Source of the DNA: Microcaldota archaeon
Lineage (GTDB): Archaea; Micrarchaeota; Micrarchaeia; Anstonellales; Anstonellaceae
Assembly (NCBI GenBank): GCA_021814005.1
Contig: JAKAJC010000013.1
Span: 1 to 38,987, forward strand
Direction: 5' to 3'
DNA: 38,987 nucleotides
In this document: in pieces, positions 2,131 to 10,155 of the stretch
How positions within the stretch are numbered: position 1 is the stretch's first letter
Layout of the letters: each line of letters opens with the position of its first letter
Made by a program: the position numbers and the translations under genes
Notes under the pieces: generated by a model
Database searches by the model: none
What the model saw: only the letters and a program-made list of their open reading frames with translations
Told to the model about the DNA's origin: nothing

Positions 2131-2179
2131 TGAAACCATATATGATAATTGGTGAAACACTGGTTTCCAAAACTGAAAC
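2131..2179. promoter_or_regulatory. Candidate operator triad A: three TGAAAC direct repeats at 2131, 2153 and 2174 (22 and 21 bp spacing); the middle repeat sits in the dyad GAAAC-ACTG-GTTTC
   Basis: Read directly: TGAAACcatatatgataattggTGAAACactggtttccaaaacTGAAAC, between the divergent dsbA (2078, -) and wHTH gene (2254, +). Same architecture as 10078-10126. Confidence 0.75.
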
Positions 2180-2224
2180 CACGCGTTTTGGCGAAATCCT
2201 CGCTGCCTTGCGCCTGCCGCAATG

Positions 2225-2231
2225 TTTAATA
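2225..2231 (+). promoter_or_regulatory. Putative archaeal TATA box for the 2254 wHTH gene (leaderless arrangement)
   Basis: TTTAATA about 26 bp upstream of ATG 2254. Confidence 0.45.
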
Positions 2232-2253
2232 CTTTTTGGGCAGTAGTTGTGGC

Positions 2254-2745
2254 ATGATTCAGGGCAACAAAAAGACCTTAATCGGGTTCTTGGCTTTTTC
2301 GGCGTTCATGCTCATCGTCGCGTATGCGCCGCAGACGCTGATGCGCAACGCGCCGCTTGCCTGCACCGACTCATGCCCCAGCGACAGGTATATTTCGGAA
2401 TTGCTGGCCTATCTCCCTGCGCTTATCATCCTCGGCTTTGCTTTCGGAATCGGGCTTTCCTACCTTTACTTTGAGCGCAGGATTGCGCTGCCTGAAAGCA
2501 GGATTGACCGGAAGAAGGCGTTCCTTGCCATGCTTGAGCCGACCGAATCCAAGCTTGTCGGAAAGATTGCCGATAGGGGAGGGGAGGCGCTCCAGGCCGA
2601 GCTGTCAAGGATTGAGGGAGTCGGCAAGGTGAAGGCGCACCGTGTGATAGACCGCCTTGTCGCAAGGGGGCTGCTTGAGAAGGAAGCGGCAGGAAAGACG
2701 AATTCTGTGAGGATAAAGAAGGAAATAATGGATGCCATCAAATGA
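2254..2745 (+). CDS. Membrane-anchored winged-helix transcriptional regulator (two TM helices, extracytoplasmic loop with CTDSC, cytosolic wHTH)
   Basis: GFLAFSAFMLIVAY TM1, loop LACTDSCPSD, LPALIILGFAFGIGLSYLYF TM2, C-terminal LSRIEGVGKVKAHRVIDRLVARGLLEKEAAGKTNSV wHTH. Paralogous to the 10156 ORF. Confidence 0.75.
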   Translation: MIQGNKKTLIGFLAFSAFMLIVAYAPQTLMRNAPLACTDSCPSDRYISELLAYLPALIILGFAFGIGLSYLYFERRIALPESRIDRKKAFLAMLEPTESKLVGKIADRGGEALQAELSRIEGVGKVKAHRVIDRLVARGLLEKEAAGKTNSVRIKKEIMDAIK

Positions 2746-2749
2746 GCCG

Positions 2750-2792
2750 GCCCGTTTTGGTGGCGTATTTTGCAACAATACAATGAACGGGC
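2750..2792 (+). terminator. Two-tier hairpin immediately after the wHTH gene
   Basis: Nested inverted repeats GCCCGTT(2750-2756)/AACGGGC(2786-2792) and GTATT(2764-2768)/AATAC(2777-2781), followed by TTCTTTTCC; starts 5 bp after the stop codon. Confidence 0.45.
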
Positions 2793-3224
2793 TTCTTTTC
2801 CATTTCTGTATATCCTCATTGATTTCTGCGGCAGCGCACTCTTTTTTCCGAGGAAATAAAGCGAACAAAAGGCAGACCGTGATAGAGCAGGATATCCGGA
2901 GCCCGCGCAAAATCCAAAATTCAGGCCGCTTTTCACGAAACAAACGATGCCAACTCCGTGCTTCCTCGCGCATTTCAAAAGGTATTGCGCGGGAGGGCTG
3001 GACATGGGCAAGACCCCTTTTTGAGGGCTGAAGATAATTGAAGATCCGAAACGCGCCCGCTCGGCTTGAAAAAGGGTTTAGCTGGCACAGAATTCTTCTT
3101 CCGTCCGATTATGGCGAGATTAGGGCCTAACTGGGGCTCAAACGCGGAAAAATCTTATTTAAACCGGTCCGCCTCCCTTCATCAACGCGACGGAGATTGA
3201 ACCGTACGCGAAAAAGACGAGGTG

Positions 3225-3521
3225 ATGGAAATGGAAAGGAAGACCATGTCGGCTTTGGGTATGCTGGCCATTCTGGGCCTCGCGGCATTTGCTTGGGCCG
3301 TCCCGGACCGGAACGGAGCGAACGGGATAATGAACGGATGGGACGCACCAAACCAGTGGGAAAACCGCATGATGGAGGTGCAGAGCACGGCCTGGCCGGG
3401 TGATGCGCAGGACGGAGTCGCGTTCCGGGAGAGCATGCGGCAGATGCACAATGCGATGCACGGCTCGGATTACACGGCTCAGGAGTTCGGCCGGCTGCAC
3501 GGGGAATTGGGCTGCCATTGA
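3225..3521 (+). CDS. Small secreted/anchored Met- and His-containing protein of unknown function
   Basis: MEMERKTMSALGMLAILGLAAFAWAVPDRNG...MRQMHNAMHGSDYTAQEFGRLHGELGCH; signal-like N-terminus, GAGGTG SD just upstream, TATA-like TTATTTAAA about 70 bp upstream. Confidence 0.6.
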   Translation: MEMERKTMSALGMLAILGLAAFAWAVPDRNGANGIMNGWDAPNQWENRMMEVQSTAWPGDAQDGVAFRESMRQMHNAMHGSDYTAQEFGRLHGELGCH

Positions 3522-3557
3522 GGCGGCCCTTCATTTTTTCAAAACGACTGAGGGGTG

Positions 3558-7958: not shown

Positions 7959-8041
7959 TTTTTTCACCAAACCCCTATCATTGGCCTGTTGGCCAGCCAT
8001 ACTCTCGCTCGAAGAAAAAATACAAGGAAGATATTAGCTTA

Positions 8042-8680
8042 TCAGCCGCCGCCGCAGCCGCAGCCGCCGCCGCCGGCTCCGCACGAGCCTCCGGCCGGTG
8101 CGGCGGACGGATTGGTGGGCGCTGCGAGACCGCCGGCTGCAGGGGCCGCGTTGGCGCCCGCCGAGTTTGCGCCGGCTGCCTCTACAATGAAGCGGCCGTC
8201 GCCCATGCCCATGCCGCACGATGTTTTGTAGACACCGGGCGTGTCGGCCGTGAACTCAAGCACGTGGTTCTGGGCATTCACCTGCATTTTCTGGTTAAGG
8301 CCCCAGATGTTGAAGACCGACATGCAGCCCCTGAAAGTGGCGGGGTCAAGGTCGAGGCGGACTTTGGTTCCCTGCTTGACTGTAATCTGGCGGGGGTCGT
8401 ATATGCCGTTCACCACCTTGATTGGGATGGTCACAGTCTGGCCCGGACCGCCGAGAGCGCTTGAGCCGGACGGAGCGCCGGCCGAACCGCCAGTGCCTAA
8501 AACCCCGCCTGAACCTGATGCGGCCCCATTATTGCCTGCCAGATTTGCGCCGGCGCCGGCGCCCAGCGGACCCGGAAGAATTCCGTTTCTGGCCGCATAG
8601 CTCGGAGAGAGGGCGGCAAAGCCCATCCAGACCGCGAGCAAAATCACGATTGCGATTGCAGCGAATTCATGCGTTTTCAT
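8042..8680 (-). CDS. Cupredoxin-like domain protein with N-terminal TM/signal and Cys/Gly C-terminal tail
   Basis: VVNGIYDPRQITVKQGTKVRLDLDPATFRGCMSVFNIWG...FTADTPGVYKTSCGMGMGDGRFIVE; tail GGSCGAGGGGCGCGGG; GGAGGGTG SD. Confidence 0.8.
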   Translation of the reverse strand: MKTHEFAAIAIVILLAVWMGFAALSPSYAARNGILPGPLGAGAGANLAGNNGAASGSGGVLGTGGSAGAPSGSSALGGPGQTVTIPIKVVNGIYDPRQITVKQGTKVRLDLDPATFRGCMSVFNIWGLNQKMQVNAQNHVLEFTADTPGVYKTSCGMGMGDGRFIVEAAGANSAGANAAPAAGGLAAPTNPSAAPAGGSCGAGGGGCGCGGG

Positions 8681-8685
8681 TCAAA

Positions 8686-9729
8686 TCACCCTCCAAACAA
8701 CAGACCCGACTTGGGCCCATACACCATCAGAAACGAAAGAAACACGAAAAATATCAGCGACGTGCTGGCCATGGAGCTGAAAGGCGCCACCGAAGCCGCC
8801 TTGTCAACCGTTCCCAGCTCCTGAATCTGCATATAGACCAGCGCCATGAGAATAATCACGCACAGGGCTATGAGCAGCGTCAGGAAAATGACAAGCGGTT
8901 CTGCCAGCAGCATCACAGACAGCATGGCGCCCATGGTGCCCGACATCACGCCGGCCATCAGGCCCTCCATGATACCCATCACGCCCGAGGGGCGTCCGGC
9001 CCACACTCCGGCCACGCAGCCGATGAGCATGCCGAGCACGCTGCCCCAGAACATGCCGCTTGACGCGCCCAAAAGCGCGCCCACCATAAATCCGGTCATC
9101 ATGCCGAACGTCATGCCCTCCATCATGCCGATTGAGCACGAGATGGGCTTGTGGTAAGATGCGAAGTGGTAGCCGGCCGCCACAATGGCCACTACCGAAA
9201 CCGCGGCGAGCTCGAGAAGAGGCAGCATCGCGGTGGAGAAATTGGGCAGTGCGTGCCATACGCCCGCGTTCAGAAATGCCAGCAAAAGGCCCAGAGCGAG
9301 AAGAGAGCCGATTGAGTGGACAAGTATGCGGCGCTCGGCAATCCATTCGGGCTTGTTGTCCAGAATGCCGTAGAAAATGCTCTTGAAGCTGACAAGGGCG
9401 GCCGAATCTGAAGAGCATGACGCGTCGGTGTCTTTCTTGCCCGGCTTGCTGCAGCAGTCGCCAGCCTTGTTCTCAGTTGCCTGTTCGCCGGAATGGGCGG
9501 AAGATTCTGCCGAATCACGGGCAGTGTAGTCTGTTACTCTGTAGCCTGCATCTTCCACAGCCTTTTCTATTTCGGCCCGCTTGTCGCCTTCCGTCTTGAT
9601 GAACATGCGGCCCTTGGCAGAGCTGATGGAAAGCAGAGTCACGTCATCGAGCTTTGAAACATATTTGGTGATGATGCGCTCACAGGAGGCGCAGGTCATC
9701 CCGCTGATTTTAACTTCATAGAGTTGCAT
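8686..9729 (-). CDS. HMA (heavy-metal-associated) domain fused to a Gly/Met-rich multi-TM domain
   Basis: N-terminal VKISGMTCASCERIITKYVSKL...; C-terminal GMMEGMTFGMMTGFMVGALLGASSGMFWGSVLGMLIGCVAGVWAGRPSGVMGIMEGLMAGVMSGTMGAML. Confidence 0.75.
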   Translation of the reverse strand: MQLYEVKISGMTCASCERIITKYVSKLDDVTLLSISSAKGRMFIKTEGDKRAEIEKAVEDAGYRVTDYTARDSAESSAHSGEQATENKAGDCCSKPGKKDTDASCSSDSAALVSFKSIFYGILDNKPEWIAERRILVHSIGSLLALGLLLAFLNAGVWHALPNFSTAMLPLLELAAVSVVAIVAAGYHFASYHKPISCSIGMMEGMTFGMMTGFMVGALLGASSGMFWGSVLGMLIGCVAGVWAGRPSGVMGIMEGLMAGVMSGTMGAMLSVMLLAEPLVIFLTLLIALCVIILMALVYMQIQELGTVDKAASVAPFSSMASTSLIFFVFLSFLMVYGPKSGLLFGG

Positions 9730-9765
9730 GAGACACCTCATTCAAACGATTAACTTGTCTTCTGA

Positions 9766-9966
9766 TTACTGGACTTTGTAGCCCTCGGCCGCAATGGCCT
9801 TCTTGACTGCGGCCAGAGTCTTGTCGTCTGCCGCAGAAACCTTGACCACGCCGGTCTTGCTGTTTGCCGAAATAACCTTGGCGCCGGGAACATCCTCAAG
9901 CGCCATTGAGATTACTTTCTCACAGCTTGCGCAGTGCATGCCGGATACCTTGAGTGTTGCTTCCAT
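9766..9966 (-). CDS. copZ: CopZ-like HMA metal chaperone
   Basis: MEATLKVSGMHCASCEKVISMALEDVPGAKVISANSKTGVVKVSAADDKTLAAVKKAIAAEGYKVQ: stand-alone HMA domain with MHCASC. Confidence 0.85.
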   Translation of the reverse strand: MEATLKVSGMHCASCEKVISMALEDVPGAKVISANSKTGVVKVSAADDKTLAAVKKAIAAEGYKVQ

Positions 9967-10077
9967 ATTTTTCACCCTTGTTTTGTTTTCAATTTTTTCT
10001 GGTTGCTTTTTTGTTTTCCAGTTGTTTTTTGCCGCCGGGGCTCGCCCAGGCGGGCGCTTGTCTTATATTTCAATGCA

Positions 10078-10126
10078 TGAAACAATACATATAGCTGCGT
10101 GAAACAATGAGTTTGAATAATGAAAC
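10078..10126. promoter_or_regulatory. Candidate operator triad B: three TGAAAC direct repeats at 10078, 10100 and 10121 (22 and 21 bp spacing), plus an inverted copy (TGTTTCA, 10149-10155) next to the start codon
   Basis: Read directly: TGAAACaatacatatagctgcgTGAAACaatgagtttgaataaTGAAACagtggttttg, between the divergent copZ operon and wHTH gene. Confidence 0.75.
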
Positions 10127-10155
10127 AGTGGTTTTGATTCAAAAAAGGTGTTTCA

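Follow-up and report, generated by a model that had tools for sequence, protein, structure and literature searches.

Transmembrane transcription regulators (TTRs), in which a DNA-binding domain and a transmembrane (TM) region are combined in one chain, have been reported to be widespread in archaea (PMC10269533). ArnR and ArnR1 of Sulfolobus acidocaldarius are membrane-bound helix-turn-helix (HTH) regulators with two TM helices that require two operator boxes for binding; ArnR has its HTH, HAMP-like and sensor domains at the N-terminus and its TM helices at the C-terminus, controls archaella and pili, and recognizes boxes of the inverted repeat TCGAC-N5-GTCGA (PMC6396743). For copper, CopR of Pyrococcus furiosus, an octamer of the Lrp/AsnC type that carries a TRASH metal domain at its C-terminus and whose binding sites are weakly conserved, is found with a cop cluster that includes copA and has a multi-site operator in a divergent promoter region (PMC7830388). 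Transmembrane one-component regulators are already known as a kind, and the arrays described here belong to a variant of it. They are two arrays of the hexamer TGAAAC, A and B, in a 38,987-nucleotide contig of a Microcaldota archaeon (Micrarchaeota; JAKAJC010000013.1 of GenBank assembly GCA_021814005.1), hereafter the window, each beside the gene of a winged helix-turn-helix (wHTH) protein, P0001 or P0002. Their sequence and context make it probable that they are the operators of two paralogous membrane-anchored one-component regulators, each of which would control its own gene and the genes divergent from it.

P0001 (2254–2745, + strand) and P0002 (10156–10746, + strand) resemble the TTRs in having a wHTH, recognized by Pfam and by fold, together with two long hydrophobic helices; in the AlphaFold models of both proteins these helices are N-terminal and read as TM helices, and the winged helix is C-terminal. 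P0001 represents a Cys type, in which the outer-loop residues C37 and C41 are invariant (consensus CIxxGxCQHE), and P0002 a cop type, in which H52 and M56 of a YHxEFM motif are at least 90% conserved at the outer end or start of the second TM helix. These residues are conserved candidate ligands. The location beside copper-export genes is a feature shared with copper-responsive regulators. The main text of the TTR survey mentions neither copper nor Micrarchaeota nor DPANN (PMC10269533), whereas here an operator, targets and candidate sensor residues are linked; searches of the open-access literature found, for Micrarchaeota, no account of a transcription regulator together with its operator. 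Unlike ArnR and ArnR1, both proteins carry the TM pair at the N-terminus and the wHTH at the C-terminus, their putative operator consists of TGAAAC units, and their predicted targets are copper and thiol genes. Unlike CopR, they combine a MarR/DUF7343-like wHTH with two TM helices and a strict TGAAAC lattice; Pfam scans of the regulators gave no match to the TRASH domain, the matches being essentially of the wHTH type. The DUF7343 model (PF24034) matched all 52 regulators scanned (29 cop-type, 23 Cys-type; E up to 0.001), with scores of 21.8 and 21.9 for the two window proteins against a curated cut-off of 27.6 and several relatives above it. Fold comparison of the regulators returned generic MarR/ArsR-type matches only, and searching the solved structures by sequence turned up no convincing match for them.

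Array A sits between a gene for a DsbA-like protein (- strand) and that of P0001, and has TGAAAC at 2131–2136 (followed by C), 2153–2158 (followed by A) and 2174–2179 (followed by C); array B, between a CopZ-like HMA gene (- strand) and the P0002 gene, has it at 10078–10083, 10100–10105 and 10121–10126, each time followed by A, all six units being on the + strand. These positions, and the spacing of 22 and then 21 bp common to both arrays, are exactly those given in a preliminary description of this DNA. The dyad GAAAC-ACTG-GTTTC that it reported in array A is present at 2154–2167, where the partner of unit 2 is an inverted half-site GGTTTC (2162–2167, - strand) facing away from unit 3; in array B an inverted half-site, ATTTCA (10067–10072, - strand), faces away from unit 1. 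Recurrence by chance was considered very unlikely in that description. TGAAAC-N16-TGAAAC-N15-TGAAAC occurs twice in the window versus not once in 100 dinucleotide shuffles, and the proposed scan of the whole genome (1.2 Mb) returned only these two copies, at 2131 and 10078, with no match to a reversed control. A two-unit pattern that includes the TATA-like core between the units, allowing up to two mismatches, found the same two genome sites only.

The arrays are conserved well beyond this genome. A search of 59 relatives placed the plain pair TGAAAC-N16-TGAAAC chiefly upstream of P0002 homologs, and close relatives of P0002 occur in Candidatus Micrarchaeota records. Among 296 genomes of the class, the pattern TGAAAC-N-ATA-N12-TGAAAC has 51 matches in 43 genomes (reversed control, 0), and at 47 of the 50 sites that could be placed a regulator homolog, a two-TM protein with a C-terminal, DUF7343-like winged helix, begins 29–241 bp downstream, counted from the site's first base; the side divergent from the regulator usually carries CopA, HMA/CopZ and cupredoxin genes. 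A protein-first search gave 67 regulators in 60 of the 303 genomes of the phylum, and the 22-bp pair, with at most two mismatches, was found upstream of 63 of them, a figure summed manually over several upstream scans. At the loci of the main upstream scan, shuffled upstream DNA scored as well as the real sequence no more than once in 100 trials. These data support the claim that operator arrays with a two-turn phasing of about 21.5 bp occupy divergent promoters beside paralogous wHTH regulators. The preliminary description had named two points on which this claim could fail, conservation in related genomes and location upstream of the regulators, and both were confirmed.

The class-wide logo reads (G/A)TTTCAT-N5-TGAAAC-M-ATAYWTAT-...-TGAAAC-AATS, with the TATA-like core falling between units 1 and 2. 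Inverted and third units are added according to regulator type: cop-type operators have an inverted unit at about -12 (34 of 40), and Cys-type operators have a third unit in direct orientation, placed exactly at +43 (20 of 22; control mean 0.4), together with an inverted one at about +32 (16 of 22), the controls for these three positions averaging 0.4–1.0. Since the third unit is fixed at +43 in the Cys type, the 22/21 two-turn spacing is a rule and not a coincidence. The start codon of cop-type genes often comes within about 30–60 bp of the core, which is therefore probably the promoter element of the regulator gene; in array B the element, ATACATATAG (10085–10094, + strand), corresponds to the core of the logo and is probably the promoter of the P0002 gene. 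The element between units 1 and 2 of array A, CATATATG (2137–2144), whose position is conserved throughout the class, is probably the dsbA promoter, read on the - strand. A second TATA-like element, TTTAATAC (2225–2232, + strand), stands about 26 bp ahead of the P0001 ATG and is conserved in two relatives; we infer that it is a leaderless promoter of the P0001 gene. An extra GTTTCA (10150–10155, - strand), conserved in the genus, lies between the ribosome-binding-like AAGGTG and the ATG of P0002 and is a possible further half-site overlapping the translation start.

The two types of regulator form separate clades, with one intermediate (L039), and each clade has its own type of array. P0001 and P0002 belong to different subtypes, a search with P0002 retrieving P0001 at just 26% identity, and their types descend from an old duplication. 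They also differ in the residue with which the recognition helix starts (K125 in P0001, R127 in P0002). This residue is Lys throughout the Cys type and Arg in most members of the cop type, and the AlphaFold models place it, as the candidate specificity residue, at the N-terminus of that helix. The base after the hexamer of unit 1, base 7 of the unit, is C or T in 24 of 26 cases with Lys, and A or G in all 37 with Arg. The exceptions within the cop clade (L033, L034, L120 and L125) have Lys together with C or T, and later loci agree, with A beside Arg in G074 and C or T beside Lys in G063, G090 and G065. In a tree built without the columns concerned, there are at least three switches of the residue, each independent pair showing the matching change of base. 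This association supports direct binding of the TGAAAC arrays by the adjacent regulators.

Conservation, placement, spacing, regulator linkage and the helix–base association were computed; from these we infer binding, the signal and the sign of regulation as follows. Each regulator would sit in the membrane by its N-terminal two-helix hairpin and hold a MarR/DUF7343-like winged helix in the cytoplasm. A dimer would bind TGAAAC half-sites, probably a facing-away pair together with neighbours 21–22 bp, or two turns, apart on one face of the DNA; these sites lie around the TATA region in the divergent promoter. P0002 would act on its own gene and on copZ with the copper-export cluster, and P0001 on its own gene and dsbA. 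Binding by the neighbouring regulator, autoregulation and control of the divergent gene are the best-supported parts of this reading. As the likeliest mode of action we favour repression: the occupied array would block TBP and TFB until an extracytoplasmic signal relieved the block, the signal being Cu(I) at H52 and M56 in the cop type, and copper or the thiol-disulfide state at the Cys pair in the Cys type. Arg or Lys at the start of the recognition helix would read base 7 (A with Arg, C or T with Lys), and this may hold the two systems partly apart.

Several points weigh against this reading. In array A, the TATA-like element that would belong to P0001 itself lies outside the array. The raw Fisher test for helix residue versus base 7 (p 2e-15) ignores relatedness, and the 2–3 independent Lys/Arg pairs are too few for tree-aware significance. 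Four of the 67 regulators have no standard pair: one (G101:C49) has no array visible upstream, and three (G063, G090 and G065) have facing-away pairs GTTTCA-N6-TGAAAC instead, two of them in G065, 43 bp apart by manual count. Finally, half-sites bound upstream could also activate. In the strongest rival explanation the regulators have the opposite sign and, from beside the TATA box, recruit TBP or TFB. The half-sites do flank the TATA region on both sides, and for Pyrococcus CopR repression as well as activation has been described at the divergent promoters that it controls (PMC7830388); yet unit 1 overlaps the position of the B recognition element (BRE) and unit 2 falls between the TATA element and the expected start site, an arrangement that blocking fits better. 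Activation is a serious but secondary possibility.

Somewhat less likely is that both arrays are bound by a single regulator, or by either of the two alike, in which case disulfide formation and copper export would be coordinated; this is the joint disulfide/copper regulon that the preliminary description had proposed. The two arrays do share the hexamer core and the 22/21 spacing, the recognition helices are similar, with KAHR in common, the genes are 8 kb apart, and a DsbA gene adjoins the regulator in several copper clusters. However, base 7 differs between the arrays in a way that matches the helix of each regulator, the regulators belong to different clades that do not share their sensor motifs or their array layouts, and most other genomes carry one type only. 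In those other genomes that have them, Cys-type genes lie for the most part opposite copper clusters, in some cases with DsbA as well, and for this reason the pairing with dsbA in the genus of the window may be a local variation. A single joint regulon is therefore unsupported in the form proposed, and these comparisons suggest that two paralogous, partly insulated autoregulated circuits are likelier. That the units are mere core-promoter sequence, alike through general promoter composition, is highly improbable: archaeal BREs are purine-rich and unit 1 is at the BRE position, but a general BRE would recur genome-wide, and we rejected such an origin because the scans gave two genome sites and no control matches. 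Units 2 and 3, moreover, are off BRE positions, and base 7 goes with the type of regulator. The regulators are paralogs, but an explanation of the likeness by a recent, non-functional duplication of a promoter-regulator block is just as unlikely, given 26% identity between P0001 and P0002 and an operator core kept in both clades across many families while the linkers diverged.

The DsbA-like protein next to P0001 (1197–2078, - strand) is a membrane-anchored thiol oxidoreductase by Pfam (Thioredoxin_4, 7.6e-33; DSBA, 7.6e-20) and is followed by a second DsbA-like protein (216–1133, - strand; Pfam). Divergent from P0002, all on the - strand, are the CopZ-like HMA metallochaperone (9769–9966; HMA, 1.8e-12), a membrane protein with an HMA domain (8686–9729), a cupredoxin-like protein (8042–8680) and a CopA-type Cu+ P-type ATPase that carries a CPC motif (5736–8000; TIGR01511, 620.5 bits with a cut-off of 397). 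Between the two modules there is also a small gene for an ArsR-like wHTH protein (4045–4329), conserved in genome G004 and possibly a third metalloregulator. The third DUF7343 protein of this genome (L132, G000:C30:13055–13228) exceeds the Pfam cut-off, and the upstream DNA examined contains no TGAAAC array; the same holds for the upstream DNA examined of four weak regulator homologs (L030, L031, L032 and L037).

Elsewhere in the phylum, the three placed sites without a regulator lie ahead of a peroxiredoxin-like open reading frame (ORF) in G005, a P-type ATPase in G008 and no clear gene in G101. In the first case (L042, G005:C62:1356–1383, - strand), the operator pair is about 75–170 bp ahead of the ORF, which is a probable additional member of the regulon. 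The second (L048, G008:C9:9450–9477, - strand) is a second operator copy, ahead of an ORF of 879 amino acids and about 1.1 kb away from the operator of the regulator itself. One regulator (L122, G132:C3:4607 and 4675) is preceded by two near-identical operator pairs 68 bp apart. The DsbA-adjacent regulators of G063 (L189) and G090 (L190) have two facing-away GTTTC/TGAAAC pairs replacing the 22-bp array, possibly a different layout of the same site.

The finding supplies an operator, its probable binding proteins, target genes and a testable rule that relates a residue to a base. Whether these regulators are, on the scale of the phylum, a Micrarchaeota class of membrane copper/thiol sensors, in which two alternative extracytoplasmic sensor sites, the Cys pair of the outer loop or the His/Met pair at the start of the second TM helix, are joined to one kind of winged helix on a cooperative two-turn TGAAAC lattice, and in which Arg or Lys sets base 7 and so insulates the paralogs, we regard as evenly balanced. 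If true, it would place membrane-embedded control of copper and thiols in archaea beside the soluble CopR type, and would provide a natural case of duplicated regulators separating their DNA sites.

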